Shown piece by piece: positions 21,763 through 27,080 of a stretch of 64,000 nucleotides of DNA. Position 1 is the stretch's first letter; the number at the start of each line of letters is the position of its first letter. Under the pieces are notes generated by a model, which searched no databases, had not been told where the DNA came from, and saw nothing but the letters and a program-made list of their open reading frames with translations. The position numbers and the translations under genes were made by a program. Source of the DNA: Actinomycetes bacterium (GTDB lineage: Bacteria > Actinomycetota > Acidimicrobiia > Acidimicrobiales > RAAP-2); contig JAJZDI010000006.1 in NCBI GenBank assembly GCA_021806045.1, positions 70,964-134,963 on the forward strand, in the 5' to 3' direction.

Positions 21763-22392
21763 TCAGAGGCGGCGGAGCACGGTGACGACCTTGCCGTAGA
21801 CGACGACGTCTGCGCCATCGAACTCCATGGGGTCGAGTCGCTCGTTCGCCGGGATGAGCACCACCTTGTCGCCCCGCCGGGAGAAGCGCTTGACCGTCGC
21901 CTCGTCACCGGGGATCCCGGCCACCACGATTTCGCCTTCCTCGGCACTGGGCTGTTGCCGGACGACGACGAAATCGCCGTCGAGGATGCCGGCGTCGATC
22001 ATTGAGTCGCCTCGTACCGCCACCATGAACAGGGTGCCGGTGCCCGTGAAGTCCTCGGGGAGGGGCAGGAGCTCCTCCACGTTCTCCTGGGCGAGGACGC
22101 CAGTGCCGGCGGCCACCGAGCCGACGAGGGGCACGTGACGGGTGGGGCGAGCGTCCACGACGATCTTCGAGGAGGGGTCGTACCGGACCTCGATGGCACG
22201 GGGCTTGGTCGGGTCACGCCGGAGATAGCCCTCGCGCTGGAGCACGGCCAGGTGGGCGTGGACCGTGGACGACGACGTCAGACCCACCCGCTCGCCGATC
22301 TCCCGTACGGACGGCGGATAGCCCCGCTCCCGGAGGGACTCGGCGATGCAGTCGAGGATCTCTTTGCGCTTCTGCGTCAGCACCTCGGCCAC
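21763..22392 (-). CDS. lexA: SOS response repressor LexA
   Basis: Represses DNA-damage genes and cleaves itself when RecA is activated. 209 aa. N-terminal winged helix (EIGERVGLTSSSTVHAHL), cleavage site Ala95-Gly96, catalytic Ser130 (GDSM) and Lys168 (EATVKRF). The start is the GTG at 22392, preceded by GGGGGAT; the frame continues upstream to 22617 but that stretch covers the SOS boxes and lacks family similarity. An 8-bp stem (22415-22422 with 22429-22436) lies in its leader. It is divergent to the LysM gene and autoregulated through two SOS boxes. Confidence 0.95.
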   Translation of the reverse strand: MAEVLTQKRKEILDCIAESLRERGYPPSVREIGERVGLTSSSTVHAHLAVLQREGYLRRDPTKPRAIEVRYDPSSKIVVDARPTRHVPLVGSVAAGTGVLAQENVEELLPLPEDFTGTGTLFMVAVRGDSMIDAGILDGDFVVVRQQPSAEEGEIVVAGIPGDEATVKRFSRRGDKVVLIPANERLDPMEFDGADVVVYGKVVTVLRRL

Positions 22393-22437: not shown

Positions 22438-22455
22438 TGCGAACGTCTGTTCGCA
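22438..22455. promoter_or_regulatory. SOS box 1 (lexA operator, start-site side)
   Basis: TGCGAAC-GTCT-GTTCGCA, a perfect 7-bp palindrome of the actinobacterial CGAAC-N4-GTTCG type. It covers the predicted lexA transcription start. Confidence 0.9.
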
Positions 22456-22457
22456 GT

Positions 22458-22486
22458 ACGGTACTCCGGACGCGACGCCGATGCAA
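22458..22486 (-). promoter_or_regulatory. lexA promoter
   Basis: On the minus strand TTGCAT (22486-22481) and TACCGT (22463-22458) are spaced by 17 bp. SOS box 2 overlaps the -35 and box 1 lies directly after the -10. Confidence 0.6.
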
Positions 22487-22497
22487 ACATCTGTTCG
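22484..22497. promoter_or_regulatory. SOS box 2 (lexA operator, -35 side)
   Basis: CAAAC-ATCT-GTTCG, one mismatch from the consensus in the left half. It overlaps the lexA -35. Confidence 0.7.
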
Positions 22498-22506
22498 ATA
22501 TCCTCC

Positions 22507-22535
22507 TTGACAGCGAACACCTGTTCGTGTTTCAT
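22507..22535 (+). promoter_or_regulatory. Promoter of the LysM gene
   Basis: A consensus TTGACA (22507-22512) and TTTCAT (22530-22535) are spaced by 17 bp. SOS box 3 fills the spacer, which should block RNA polymerase. Confidence 0.65.
22514..22527. promoter_or_regulatory. SOS box 3 (in the LysM promoter spacer)
   Basis: CGAAC-ACCT-GTTCG, an exact consensus match between -35 and -10. Confidence 0.88.
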
Positions 22536-22546
22536 GATCACCATGG

Positions 22547-22560
22547 CGAACAGGTGTTCG
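22547..22560. promoter_or_regulatory. SOS box 4 (at the LysM transcription start)
   Basis: CGAAC-AGGT-GTTCG, an exact consensus match just after the predicted start site and before the ribosome site. Confidence 0.88.
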
Positions 22561-22583: not shown

Positions 22584-23027
22584 ATGAGTGCGGTGATGGC
22601 ACCATGCGCTCCGACATGGGATCGGGTGGCGGATGATGGCCGGGGAGCGAGCTATCACGCCGCAGGCGGGGATCGCCTCCGCCTGGTGTCCGTCGTCCCC
22701 GATGAGGGTGCCCGCGATGAGGGTGCGGTCAGGTCACGGCGGCCGTCGATCCAGGTCAGGCGGCGGCGGGCCGCGGTGGGAGCGTTCGTCCTTGCCGTCG
22801 TCGTCCTGCTCAGCCTTCCTCCGGGGGTGTTCGGTGCCCACCACGCGGCGGTGAGCCCGGGCCCGCGCATCACGGCCTCCACCTACACCGTCGTGCCAGG
22901 GGACTCGATGTGGTCGATCGCCGAGCGCGCCGATCCTGGCGGCGACCCGCGAGTGCTCGTCGCACAACTCGAGGCTCGGACCGGATCGTCGACCGTCTAT
23001 CCCGGTGAGGTCCTCTCGCTCCGCTGA
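22584..23027 (+). CDS. SOS-controlled LysM membrane protein, probable cell-division inhibitor
   Basis: 147 aa: a basic N-terminal cytoplasmic part, one membrane helix (about 63-85), and a LysM domain (100-147, starting YTVVPGDSMWSIAE) outside the membrane to bind peptidoglycan. ATG 22584 follows GGGGAG. Divergence from lexA and two SOS boxes in its promoter match yneA of Bacillus and Rv2719c (ChiZ) of Mycobacterium, which halt division after DNA damage; order lexA-LysM-nrdR is also that of Mycobacterium. Function is inferred from this context and architecture; sequence outside LysM is not conserved enough to judge by eye. Confidence 0.82.
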   Translation: MSAVMAPCAPTWDRVADDGRGASYHAAGGDRLRLVSVVPDEGARDEGAVRSRRPSIQVRRRRAAVGAFVLAVVVLLSLPPGVFGAHHAAVSPGPRITASTYTVVPGDSMWSIAERADPGGDPRVLVAQLEARTGSSTVYPGEVLSLR

Positions 23028-23083
23028 CCGCCGCATGAGTGCGCCACGACCGGAGCGCGCGAGGTGTGCCGACCGGTGCGAGA

Positions 23084-23089
23084 TAACCT
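23084..23089 (+). promoter_or_regulatory. -10 element of a leaderless nrdR promoter
   Basis: TAACCT lies exactly 6 nt before the GTG at 23096, so nrdR can be expressed without SOS induction. Confidence 0.5.
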
Positions 23090-23095
23090 CACCAC

Positions 23096-23569
23096 GTGCG
23101 TTGTCCCTGGTGCCTGGTCGATGACGACCGGGTGGTCGATTCCCGGACGGCCGAAGATGGGGCTGCGATCCGTCGCCGACGGGAGTGCGTGTCGTGTGGA
23201 CGGCGCTTCACGACGTTCGAGCGGCCGGAGGAGGTGCCGCTGCTCGTGACGAAACGGTCCGGGGTCCGAGAGCCGTTCGACCGGGGGAAGGTGGTCCAGG
23301 GACTGCGCGCAGCGACGAAGAACCGGCCCGTCGACGAAGGCGCGCTGGACGAGATCGCCCGGCAGGTCGAGGAGCTCGTGCGCGACGCTGCACCGACGGC
23401 CACCACCCAGTTGATCGGCATGGCCGTCCTCGAGCGGCTCCTGGCGGCCGATCACGTCTCGTACCTCCGGTTCGCCAGCGTCTACAAGGGATTCGCTGAC
23501 GCAGACGACTTCCAGCGGGAAGTGGGGCTCCTGACGAAGGAGACCGCCCCCAAGCGTCCGGCGCCGTGA
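23096..23569 (+). CDS. nrdR: Ribonucleotide reductase repressor NrdR
   Basis: ATP/dATP-sensing zinc repressor of nrd genes. 157 aa. Zinc ribbon Cys3-x2-Cys6 and Cys31-x2-Cys34, then an ATP-cone (VTKRSGVREPFDRGKVVQGL to the end). The start is fixed by the first Cys motif and the leaderless -10. No nrd gene is in the window, so its targets lie elsewhere. The stop overlaps the next gene as GTGA. Confidence 0.95.
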   Translation: MRCPWCLVDDDRVVDSRTAEDGAAIRRRRECVSCGRRFTTFERPEEVPLLVTKRSGVREPFDRGKVVQGLRAATKNRPVDEGALDEIARQVEELVRDAAPTATTQLIGMAVLERLLAADHVSYLRFASVYKGFADADDFQREVGLLTKETAPKRPAP

Positions 23570-24282
23570 GCTCACCTGACCGGTTCGAGGAGATCCCCGA
23601 GCGGGCGTTGGCCATCTACGCCCACCCCGACGACCCCGACATCTCGTGTGGCGGCACGCTGGCCCGGTGGGCAGCCGGAGGATGTGCCGTCCACGTCCTG
23701 CTGTGCACCGATGGGGGAAAGGGCACGGACGACCCGGCTGCCACCCCGGCCGAGACGGCCGCTCTGAGGTCCGAGGAAGTGGCGGCAGCTGGTCGCGTTC
23801 TCGGCATCACCGGGCACATCCTGCTGGGCCACGCCGACGGTGAGCTCGAAGAGGACGCCGAGCTGCGCGGCCAGCTGGTGTCGGCCATCCGCTCCGTCCG
23901 ACCCGATGTCGTGCTGTGCCCGGACCCGACGGCCGTCTTCTTCGGCCAGGAGTACGTCAACCACCGTGACCATCGCACGGTGGGTTGGAGCGCGCTCGAC
24001 GCGGTCTCACCGGCGGCTGCCCTGCCGCACTACTTCCCCGACGCCGGCCCGCCCCACCAAGTCGATGTCGTGCTCCTGTCGGGAACACTCGCTCCCGACG
24101 TGTGGGTCGATATCGAGGCGCACATCGGGGCGAAGGTGGAGGCGGTCGCCTGCCATCGAAGTCAATTCACCGACGACGGGTCGTGGACCCGCTCGGCCGT
24201 CCGCCTCCAGGCCGAGGAGGCTGCCCGACAGTCTGGGCTGGTGCTGGCCGAGGGGTTCCGGATGCTGCGCCTGGGTGGTTGA
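23566..24282 (+). CDS. PIG-L family deacetylase
   Basis: Zinc-dependent N-deacetylase of the GlcNAc-PI/MshB/LmbE family, 238 aa. The metal motif AHPDD is at 19-23, and VNHRDHRTVGW gives the third ligand. Candidates include mycothiol-related deacetylation or removal of acetyl groups from sugar conjugates; sequence alone does not decide and no mshA/C/D genes are nearby. GTG 23566 overlaps nrdR's stop. Confidence 0.85.
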   Translation: MSSPDRFEEIPERALAIYAHPDDPDISCGGTLARWAAGGCAVHVLLCTDGGKGTDDPAATPAETAALRSEEVAAAGRVLGITGHILLGHADGELEEDAELRGQLVSAIRSVRPDVVLCPDPTAVFFGQEYVNHRDHRTVGWSALDAVSPAAALPHYFPDAGPPHQVDVVLLSGTLAPDVWVDIEAHIGAKVEAVACHRSQFTDDGSWTRSAVRLQAEEAARQSGLVLAEGFRMLRLGG

Positions 24283-24302
24283 GGTGCATGGGTGGTTGAG
24301 GT
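24273..24302 (+). repeat. Short tandem duplication at the PIG-L/dinB junction
   Basis: GGGTGGTTGAGGT occurs at 24273-24285 and again at 24290-24302 (17-nt period). The first copy contains the stop codon of the deacetylase gene and the second supplies GAGG before dinB. Confidence 0.7.
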
Positions 24303-24308
24303 ACCCGG

Positions 24309-25679
24309 ATGGCTGAGTTGACGGCCACGGTGGGACCCACTTCGTCCGGTGCGGATGTCGTGCACGTGGACATGGACGCGTTCTTCGCCTCGGTCGAGGT
24401 TCTCGACCGCCCGGAGCTCGTCGGCCGGCCGGTCATCGTGGGCGGCACCGGGTCCCGTGGCGTGGTGGCGGCATGCACGTACGAGGCTCGCCGGTATGGC
24501 GTGCACTCGGCCATGCCGATGAGCCTGGCCCGCCGGGCATGCCCCGGCGCCGTCGTCCTCCCCGGACGGTTCGACCGGTACCGGGAGATCAGCGACCGGC
24601 TCCACCGGATCCTGCTCGACGTCACCCCGATAGTGGAACGGATCGCCCTCGACGAGGCCTTCCTCGACGTATCGGGTGCACACCGCCTCTTCGGCGACAC
24701 CACCGCCATCGCGCACCTGCTGCACGATCGGGTCGCCGGCGAGCTGCACCTGCCCTGCTCCGTCGGCGCCGGTCCCGTCAAGTTCATCGCCAAGCTCGCC
24801 TCCGAGGCGGCCAAGCCCTCGGCCACCCCGGCTGGTATCACTGCTGGGGCGGGTGTCGTCGTGGTCGGGCCCGCGGAGGTCAACGAGTTCCTCGAACCCC
24901 ATCCGGTGGGCGCCTTGTGGGGGGTCGGCCCGGTTGCCGCCCGCCGCCTGGCATCGATCGGTGTCGCCACCGTCGGCGATCTCGCCGGGGTGCCCGAACG
25001 CACGATCGTCCGCCTGCTGGGCGCACGTGCCGGAGGGCAGTTGGCACGGCTGGCCCGCGGGCTGGACGACCGCCCCGTCGTCCCTGACCGTCCGCACAAG
25101 TCCGTCGGGAAGGAGCGGACCTTCCCGGTGGACGAGGTCGATCCGGGGCGCCTCCACCAGCACCTGGTCGGGCTGGTGGATGGCGTAGCCGATCATCTGC
25201 GGTCGGCTCACCTGGCCGGGAGGACGGTGGTCCTCAAGGTGCGCACCGCCGACTTCACCACGTCGACCCGCTCCCACACGTCGGCGCAACCGGTGGACAC
25301 GGCGGCGGCGATCCTGACGGTGGCGAGTGGCCTGCTCGAGTCGGTCGACGCCTCACCGGGGATCCGGCTCCTCGGCGTCAGCGTGACGGGCATCACCCCG
25401 GCAGGGGCCGATCCCGACGGCGTCTCCGAGGTATCCCAGCTCGCCTTCGCCCTGGAGGGGCCCGGGGCCGGGCCCGGGGACGAGGGTGGACCCGGCCCCG
25501 GCCGGCCAGCCGTCGCCGGGGCATGGTCGCAAGTCGCCGAGGCGGTCGACGCTGTCCGGTCTCGCTACGGGCGTACCTCCCTGCGGCCGGCTGCCCTGGT
25601 CAGCGATGGTGATGGTGGTTCCCGCCCAGACGTCCAGGTGCGCCCCGACCCTAACGCAGGCCGTCCCACGGTTCCGTGA
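24309..25679 (+). CDS. dinB: DNA polymerase IV (Y family)
   Basis: Error-prone translesion polymerase, 456 aa. The catalytic acidic residues are Asp21 and Asp23 (HVDMDAFFASVE) and Asp115-Glu116 (ALDEAFLD); CTYEARRYGVHSAMP and the little-finger domain follow. A Gly/Pro-rich stretch near 385-405 precedes the C-terminus, where a beta-clamp motif would be expected; only a weak QLAFA is seen. No SOS box of the lexA type lies upstream, so control by LexA is not evident although lexA is 2 kb away. Confidence 0.93.
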   Translation: MAELTATVGPTSSGADVVHVDMDAFFASVEVLDRPELVGRPVIVGGTGSRGVVAACTYEARRYGVHSAMPMSLARRACPGAVVLPGRFDRYREISDRLHRILLDVTPIVERIALDEAFLDVSGAHRLFGDTTAIAHLLHDRVAGELHLPCSVGAGPVKFIAKLASEAAKPSATPAGITAGAGVVVVGPAEVNEFLEPHPVGALWGVGPVAARRLASIGVATVGDLAGVPERTIVRLLGARAGGQLARLARGLDDRPVVPDRPHKSVGKERTFPVDEVDPGRLHQHLVGLVDGVADHLRSAHLAGRTVVLKVRTADFTTSTRSHTSAQPVDTAAAILTVASGLLESVDASPGIRLLGVSVTGITPAGADPDGVSEVSQLAFALEGPGAGPGDEGGPGPGRPAVAGAWSQVAEAVDAVRSRYGRTSLRPAALVSDGDGGSRPDVQVRPDPNAGRPTVP

Positions 25680-25708
25680 GCTGGTGTACCGCGCAGCGTT
25701 GTCACCCG

Positions 25709-25714
25709 TAGACT
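25709..25714 (+). promoter_or_regulatory. Possible -10 element upstream of the DUF3040 gene
   Basis: TAGACT would give a leader of about 80 nt that contains a GGAG-rich ribosome site before GTG 25803. No convincing -35 was seen. Confidence 0.35.
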
Positions 25715-25802
25715 GAGTGCGCGAAGCTTTGGAGCGGAGGCTGTGCGATCATGGGAGCAAGCCCAGCCAGGAGATCCACTCGAGGGTGGAGGGGAGAGGG
25801 AC

Positions 25803-26177
25803 GTGCCGCTCTCTGAACATGAACAGCGAATTCTCCAGGAGCTGGAGCAGTCGCTCTACCAGCAGGATCCGGACTTCGCCGAGCGGGTGCGTTCGGAGAC
25901 CGTCTACCGGCACGCCGGCCGTCATTGCGCATGGTCGGCGGCCACGTTCTTGGCGTCCCTGCTCTTCATGATCTTCACCTTCGCCAGCTCCGTGGCTCTC
26001 GGGTTCGTCGGCGTGGTGGCCATGTTCGTCTCGGGGATCGTGTTCGTGAACAATGCCCGGCGGCTCGGCAAGGCCGGCATCGACGACATCTCCCGCTCGC
26101 TCCACAACCGGCAGATCGGCCGGCAGGCGCACGACCCGCGCGACTGGTTGCGGGACCGCTTCCATCGCGACAACTGA
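25803..26177 (+). CDS. DUF3040 membrane protein
   Basis: 124 aa with the family start PLSEHEQRILQELEQSLYQQD, two membrane helices close together (about 43-90), and a basic tail. GTG 25803 is chosen because it begins the family signature and follows GAGGGGAGAGGG; an ATG-like frame from 25743 would add 20 residues. DUF3040 genes are common in actinobacteria, often near mraZ, which lies 3.5 kb downstream. Function is unknown. Confidence 0.82.
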   Translation: MPLSEHEQRILQELEQSLYQQDPDFAERVRSETVYRHAGRHCAWSAATFLASLLFMIFTFASSVALGFVGVVAMFVSGIVFVNNARRLGKAGIDDISRSLHNRQIGRQAHDPRDWLRDRFHRDN

Positions 26178-26183
26178 GCCGCG

Positions 26184-27080
26184 GTGGAGGACGACGCCGA
26201 CGGTTCGACCAGCGGTGGGCCGCACGTGCTCGCCGTCGACATCGGTGGCACCAAGGTCGAAGCATCCATCGTCGACCGTGCCGGTGTGATCTCCGCCCGG
26301 CGACGGGAGCCGACACCGAGGTCAGCCGATGCGGAGGCCGTGTTCGCCTCAGTGCGCACCTGCATCGACGATGTCGTCTCACGAGCGGCTCCGGTCGCGT
26401 GCGGCATCGGGTGCGGGGGGCCCATGGAGCTCGGTACGGGGGTCGTGTCGCCGCTCAACATCCCTGCCTGGCGCGCCTTTCCCCTGCGCGACCGGGTGGC
26501 GGACCACACCGGGTTGCCGGTCGCCGTCGACAACGATGCGAAGGCCCTCGCGCTCGGCGAGGGCTGGACGGGAGCCGCCGCTGGTCGGAGCGACTTCCTC
26601 GCCATGGTGGTCTCGACCGGCATCGGAGCGGGCATCGTTCTCGACGGCCGGCTGCTGGGCGGCCGATTGGGCAACGCCGGCCACCTCGGCCACGTCGTGG
26701 TGGAGCCGGCCGGGCGCCCGTGCGCGTGCGGCGGGCGTGGGTGCCTGGAGGCGGAGGCCTCGGGAACGGCCATCGCGCAGATGACGGGGGCACCCCCGGC
26801 GGAGGCACCCGAGCACGTGCGGCGCCGGGTCGGGATGCTGGTGGGCCGGGCCGTGGCCGACGCGGCGAACCTGTTGGACCTCGACCTGGCGGTGGTCGCC
26901 GGCTCCGTGGCCCTGGGGTTCGGGTCTGCCTTCCTCGAATCGGCCCGCCAGGAGCTGCAGCGGCGCTCCCGGCTCGACTTCTCCCGCTCGACCCGGATCG
27001 TCTTCGCTCCGGCGGGTCCTGACGCTCCGCTGATGGGTGCGGCGGCTCTCGCCTGGGGCATCGCTCCGGAGGCGGTCTGA
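26184..27080 (+). CDS. ROK-family sugar kinase (glucokinase-like)
   Basis: 298 aa. The ATP motif DIGGTK is at 19-24, and the ROK zinc motif is Cys180-x-Cys182-x4-Cys187 within [26 protein letters not shown] carries the catalytic Asp. Bacterial glucokinases of actinobacteria are of this type, so glucose is a fair guess, but other hexoses are possible. It lacks an N-terminal HTH, so it is a kinase and not a ROK repressor. It starts 6 nt after the DUF3040 gene and overlaps the next start by TGATG. Confidence 0.85.

Follow-up and report, generated by a model that had tools for sequence, protein, structure and literature searches.

The divergent lexA and LysM-domain genes of this uncultured Acidimicrobiales bacterium are separated by an array of four SOS boxes, which is real and conserved in its relatives. 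The locus is very probably an autoregulated SOS control region with four LexA operators, in which both promoters are repressed until DNA damage occurs. LexA dimers would bind all four operators. On the lexA side, box 2 would block the -35 element that it overlaps and box 1 would cover the start site; on the lysM side, box 3 would lie between the -35 and -10 elements and box 4 just downstream of the start. While the DNA is intact, LexA would bar RNA polymerase from both promoters. RecA on single-stranded DNA would then induce LexA self-cleavage and both promoters would open, so that LexA would be replenished and the LysM membrane protein made. The latter would probably stop septal wall synthesis in the manner of YneA and ChiZ, and nrdR, a PIG-L family gene and dinB would probably be carried on the lysM transcript. 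Very tight repression and sharp induction are predicted from the paired boxes; a literature search on multiple SOS boxes and tight repression returned nothing usable.

We searched the window, the whole 64-kb stretch of DNA analysed here, for the pattern CGAAC-N4-GTTCG. The boxes found and the neighbouring genes and promoter elements are listed below.

21763 to 22392, minus strand: lexA, 209 aa, GTG start; Pfam PF01726 and PF00717; TIGR00498
22440 to 22453, no strand assigned: SOS box 1, CGAACGTCTGTTCG, perfect core (0 mismatches), over the predicted lexA start site (~22451)
22458 to 22463, minus strand: predicted lexA -10, TACCGT (22463-22458), spacer 17
22481 to 22486, minus strand: predicted lexA -35, TTGCAT (22486-22481), with CAA/TTG in common with box 2
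22484 to 22497, no strand assigned: SOS box 2, CAAACATCTGTTCG, 1 mismatch, overlaps the lexA -35
22507 to 22512, plus strand: predicted lysM -35, TTGACA
22514 to 22527, no strand assigned: SOS box 3, CGAACACCTGTTCG, perfect core (0 mismatches), occupies the lysM promoter spacer
22530 to 22535, plus strand: tentative lysM -10, TTTCAT, weak, placed by a 17-nt spacer
22547 to 22560, no strand assigned: SOS box 4, CGAACAGGTGTTCG, perfect core (0 mismatches), the reverse complement of box 3, at ~+4 to +18 of lysM
22584 to 23027, plus strand: LysM gene (lysM), 147 aa; Pfam PF01476
23096 to 23569, plus strand: nrdR; PF22811 and PF03477
23566 to 24282, plus strand: PIG-L family deacetylase gene; PF02585; 4-nt overlap with nrdR
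24309 to 25679, plus strand: dinB (DNA polymerase IV); PF00817 and PF11799; NCBIfam Pol IV

A preliminary description of this DNA had placed the boxes at 22438, 22484, 22514 and 22547, with one mismatch in box 2. The pattern search recovered the last three starts as well as the mismatch, but box 1 begins two bases later, at 22440. When the window was scored with a matrix built from the boxes of relatives, CAAAC-type forms of box 2 included, the four boxes were the top four sites (21.9-23.2 bits) and the next best reached 13.8 bits. This fifth site is a lone one-mismatch core, CGACCACCTGTTCG, at positions 20-33.

The same description had called for a genome scan with the motif. The 3.1-Mb genome (97% complete) contains eight perfect CGAAC-N4-GTTCG cores, compared with none for the reversed control pattern. 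Three of the eight fall within 121 bases at lexA/lysM, and the other five occur only at DNA-repair genes: upstream of recA, ruvC, imuA', a gene for a DnaQ-type exonuclease with a GIY-YIG/UvrC part, and an alkB-like gene whose product is an AlkB-like 2OG-Fe(II) oxygenase. Since all eight perfect cores are at SOS or repair loci, as would be expected of a Gram-positive-type LexA operator, the CGAAC-N4-GTTCG boxes are predicted to be the LexA operators of this organism. A genome search with the degenerate form CGAACRNNYGTTYG gained only box 2 over the perfect cores, and the 259 genomic sites with at most one mismatch correspond to ~0.03 per 400 bases by chance. The likely core regulon consists of lexA, the lysM operon, recA, ruvC, imuA', the alkB-like gene and the DnaQ/UvrC-type exonuclease gene, as drawn from pattern searches for the perfect core and its degenerate form. 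The mycobacterial SOS box was reportedly defined by Davis et al. in 2002, and our literature search found no papers on the LexA operators of Acidimicrobiales. The LexA protein itself matches TIGR00498 (lexA) with 227 bits and has both the DNA-binding domain and the S24 peptidase domain, the Ala-Gly cleavage site in VAAG, and the Ser/Lys dyad in GDSM and TVKR.

The promoters were assigned from a reading of the sequence together with conserved spacing, as a simple sigma-70 consensus scan detected neither the lexA nor the lysM promoter. We compared lexA upstream regions collected from public genomes and from relatives of this genome. In all 38 regions having a box-2/box-3 pair, TTGAC is located 6-8 nt ahead of box 3, indicating that the predicted lysM -35 abuts box 3 and that box 3 forms the spacer. 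Among the 44 regions where box 2 has its mismatch, TANNNT follows the lexA -35 in every case, in 42 of them at a distance of 17 nt and in the remaining 2 at 18 nt, and at control spacings in none. This conservation supports both predicted -35 elements and the lexA -10. The predicted transcripts start at ~22451 on the minus strand for lexA and at ~22542 on the plus strand for lysM, with box 4 at the latter. The box positions and the conserved promoter geometry thus bear out the arrangement proposed in the preliminary description, namely two boxes per promoter, one on the -35 and one over the start for lexA, and one in the spacer and one at the start for the LysM gene. An in-frame upstream GTG start for the LysM protein (22527) was dropped because it lies ahead of the predicted transcript start.

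The mismatch in box 2 reads GTTTG in the lexA orientation, and its TTG begins the lexA -35, which is of the TTGCNN type. Of 83 lexA upstream regions, 63 have this CAAAC-N4-GTTCG form of box 2, and it recurs in most of the families in the phylum-wide sample. That GTTTG provides the -35 with its TTG accounts for the conservation of the change, which on this comparison is a shared operator/promoter element. This double role also explains the recurring "imperfect" half-site in the lexA operator of many actinobacteria. We also considered box 2 as a decaying box and rejected this, as the change is conserved and the box scores like the perfect boxes in the family-derived matrix; this score is a measure of conservation rather than of high affinity, given that the matrix itself contains such boxes. 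In family f23 (L136-L142 and L146), the box at the place of the lexA -35 is mostly AGAAC-N4-GTTCG, not CAAAC-N4-GTTCG, and the operator/promoter fusion there appears to have taken another form.

The LysM protein begins with an Arg-rich cytoplasmic part, which is followed by one transmembrane (TM) helix (hydropathy 2.36) and a LysM domain ending at the C-terminus. Its match to Pfam PF01476 is barely above the cut-off (21.5 versus 20.9 bits). The TM helix is present in all 87 lexA-adjacent LysM reading frames examined, some of which are near-duplicates. As in YneA/ChiZ-type proteins, the gene is divergent from lexA under SOS boxes, and hydropathy and the Arg-rich N-terminal side point to a single TM helix with an extracytoplasmic, C-terminal LysM domain. 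The TM helix of YneA reaches FtsW while its LysM domain blocks septal peptidoglycan synthesis, and ChiZ has been suggested to act alike (PMC13396833). By its layout and synteny, the protein here probably halts septal wall synthesis and so pauses cell division.

It might instead be SOS-regulated and serve another function, for example as a wall-repair or wall-hydrolysis factor. What it has in common with YneA and ChiZ is layout and position rather than a strongly similar sequence, the NCBIfam models gave no match to the protein, and a cell wall hydrolase activity has been ascribed to ChiZ (PMC3989709). However, known division inhibitors from several genera of Gram-positive bacteria share with it this layout, a place next to lexA and SOS control (PMC6851548), lexA-adjacent inhibitors are recognised across Gram-positives (PMC6851548; PMC3989709), and we regard a role outside division control as rather unlikely. 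In Bacillus subtilis, as here, the gene beside lexA encodes a protein with one TM helix and a LysM domain at the C-terminus (PMC13396833; PMC6851548); this gene, yneA, is SOS-induced and its product blocks septal peptidoglycan synthesis (PMC13396833). YneA is shorter, however, without the long Arg-rich cytoplasmic part, and no nrdR follows yneA. The Bacillus mojavensis locus has the same lexA/LysM-gene arrangement as B. subtilis, and its region yielded only a single box with no more than one mismatch. Corynebacterium glutamicum also has an SOS-induced division suppressor, divS, beside lexA (PMC3989709), but DivS contains no LysM domain (PMC6851548), unlike the protein here.

The array is widespread among relatives. 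Counting boxes with at most one mismatch, 34 of the 67 acidimicrobial lexA regions (window included) have four, 7 have five, 19 have three and 7 have fewer, so that 41 of 67 contain at least four and 60 of 67 at least three. The modal spacings of 44, 29-30 and 33 nt agree with those of the window (44, 30 and 33 nt). Across regions, the distances range over 40-49 nt for boxes 1-2, 22-31 nt (mostly 28-31) for boxes 2-3 and 26-36 nt for boxes 3-4, and the idea that the boxes are strictly phased on the DNA helix was dropped because of this variation.

The paired blocking of both promoters has an alternative, in which only the promoter-embedded boxes 2 and 3 repress, with boxes 1 and 4 being auxiliary or vestigial and control being neither paired nor unusually tight. 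Boxes 2 and 3 do overlap core promoter elements, several actinobacterial families show no box at lexA other than the counterpart of box 2, and box 1 is the least conserved of the four: a box with 0-1 mismatch occupies its place in 34 of 44 regions, while in the other 10 it is absent or has at least two mismatches. Nevertheless, 35 of 38 regions have a box with no more than one mismatch at the box-4 place, 26-36 nt past box 3, and both this frequency and that of box 1 greatly exceed the ~0.2% expected for a 12-position window. The two start-site boxes are thus under selection, which supports the view that in each pair both boxes count, and we consider repression by boxes 2 and 3 alone unlikely. 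By the same comparison, box pairing on lexA is evidently not universal among the relatives. In about half of the box-1 equivalents (e.g. in L017, L019, L036 and L107), the lysM strand reads GTTTG; this asymmetry, the second that recurs, has no obvious promoter reason.

Downstream of the array, lysM, nrdR, the PIG-L gene, dinB and a DUF3040 gene follow one another in the same direction on the plus strand (22584-26177), and simple scans found no promoter- or terminator-like sites in 22900-26300. The nrdR-PIG-L-dinB order is shared by ten loci with enough flank (L016-L020, L031, L036, L038, L050 and L051), while in more distant acidimicrobial loci lysM-nrdR mostly lacks this continuation. We infer that nrdR, the PIG-L gene and dinB are probably co-transcribed with lysM, and dinB, which encodes Pol IV, may be SOS-inducible by read-through from the lysM promoter.

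The gene order lexA/LysM/nrdR is the same as in Mycobacterium, as the preliminary description had noted. In M. tuberculosis, too, lexA is divergent from a gene for a LysM membrane protein, Rv2719c (ChiZ), followed by nrdR, and the Rv2719c-nrdR-Rv2717c operon has been assigned to LexA (PMC4181829). That locus is likewise described with four SOS boxes (PMC4181829; PMC8151990), and the core there is also CGAAC-N4-GTTCG. The boxes are divided differently: lexA is assigned one, and the divergent Rv2719c operon the other three together with a PafBC motif (PMC8151990, where the operon is printed as Rv2019c to Rv2017c, evidently for Rv2719c to Rv2717c in view of the title of its Figure S6), as against two and two here. 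Past nrdR comes Rv2717c in M. tuberculosis and the PIG-L gene and dinB here. Four boxes at a lexA/LysM locus are therefore already known from M. tuberculosis, and the switch is familiar from Mycobacterium and Bacillus. The two-plus-two layout and the dinB-containing gene run are modest variations on familiar SOS biology, and the general picture of the SOS response is unchanged by this locus.

That lysM answers chiefly to PafBC, a second damage pathway, and only secondarily to LexA, in line with reports on part of the mycobacterial control, is highly improbable: the PafBC motif at the M. tuberculosis locus does serve the Rv2719c operon (PMC8151990), but no PafBC-type motif (TTGTCRGTG-N8-TANNNT, at most one mismatch) was found at the locus here, the sole genomic match is on another contig with the control pattern giving equally many, and the lysM -35 is TTGAC in 38 of 38 regions, not TGTC. 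A PafBC promoter for lysM was accordingly rejected.

Beyond LexA control of the locus, we tentatively entertain a broader reading, possible but rather doubtful when its three parts are taken jointly. The two-plus-two array with its operator-fused lexA -35 would be an old, conserved Acidimicrobiales module, and other deep actinobacterial groups would have similar arrays of three to four boxes; in this family the lysM promoter would also drive nrdR and dinB; and it would open with a longer delay and a steeper rise than SOS genes with a single box. If this were true, one doubly blocked promoter would couple division arrest, dNTP control and mutagenic bypass. In the phylum sample, three- to four-box arrays also occur outside Acidimicrobiales (families f23, f29, f31, f32, f35 and f61), and families f26, f28, f39, f40 and f45 have mostly one clear box at lexA. 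The closest genome-collection loci, from which the window is assigned to an uncultured Acidimicrobiales bacterium, belong to Acidimicrobiaceae/Acidimicrobiales metagenome-assembled genomes; the closest LexA among them (L016) is 93% identical, and those of named Acidimicrobiaceae are at most 82% identical.
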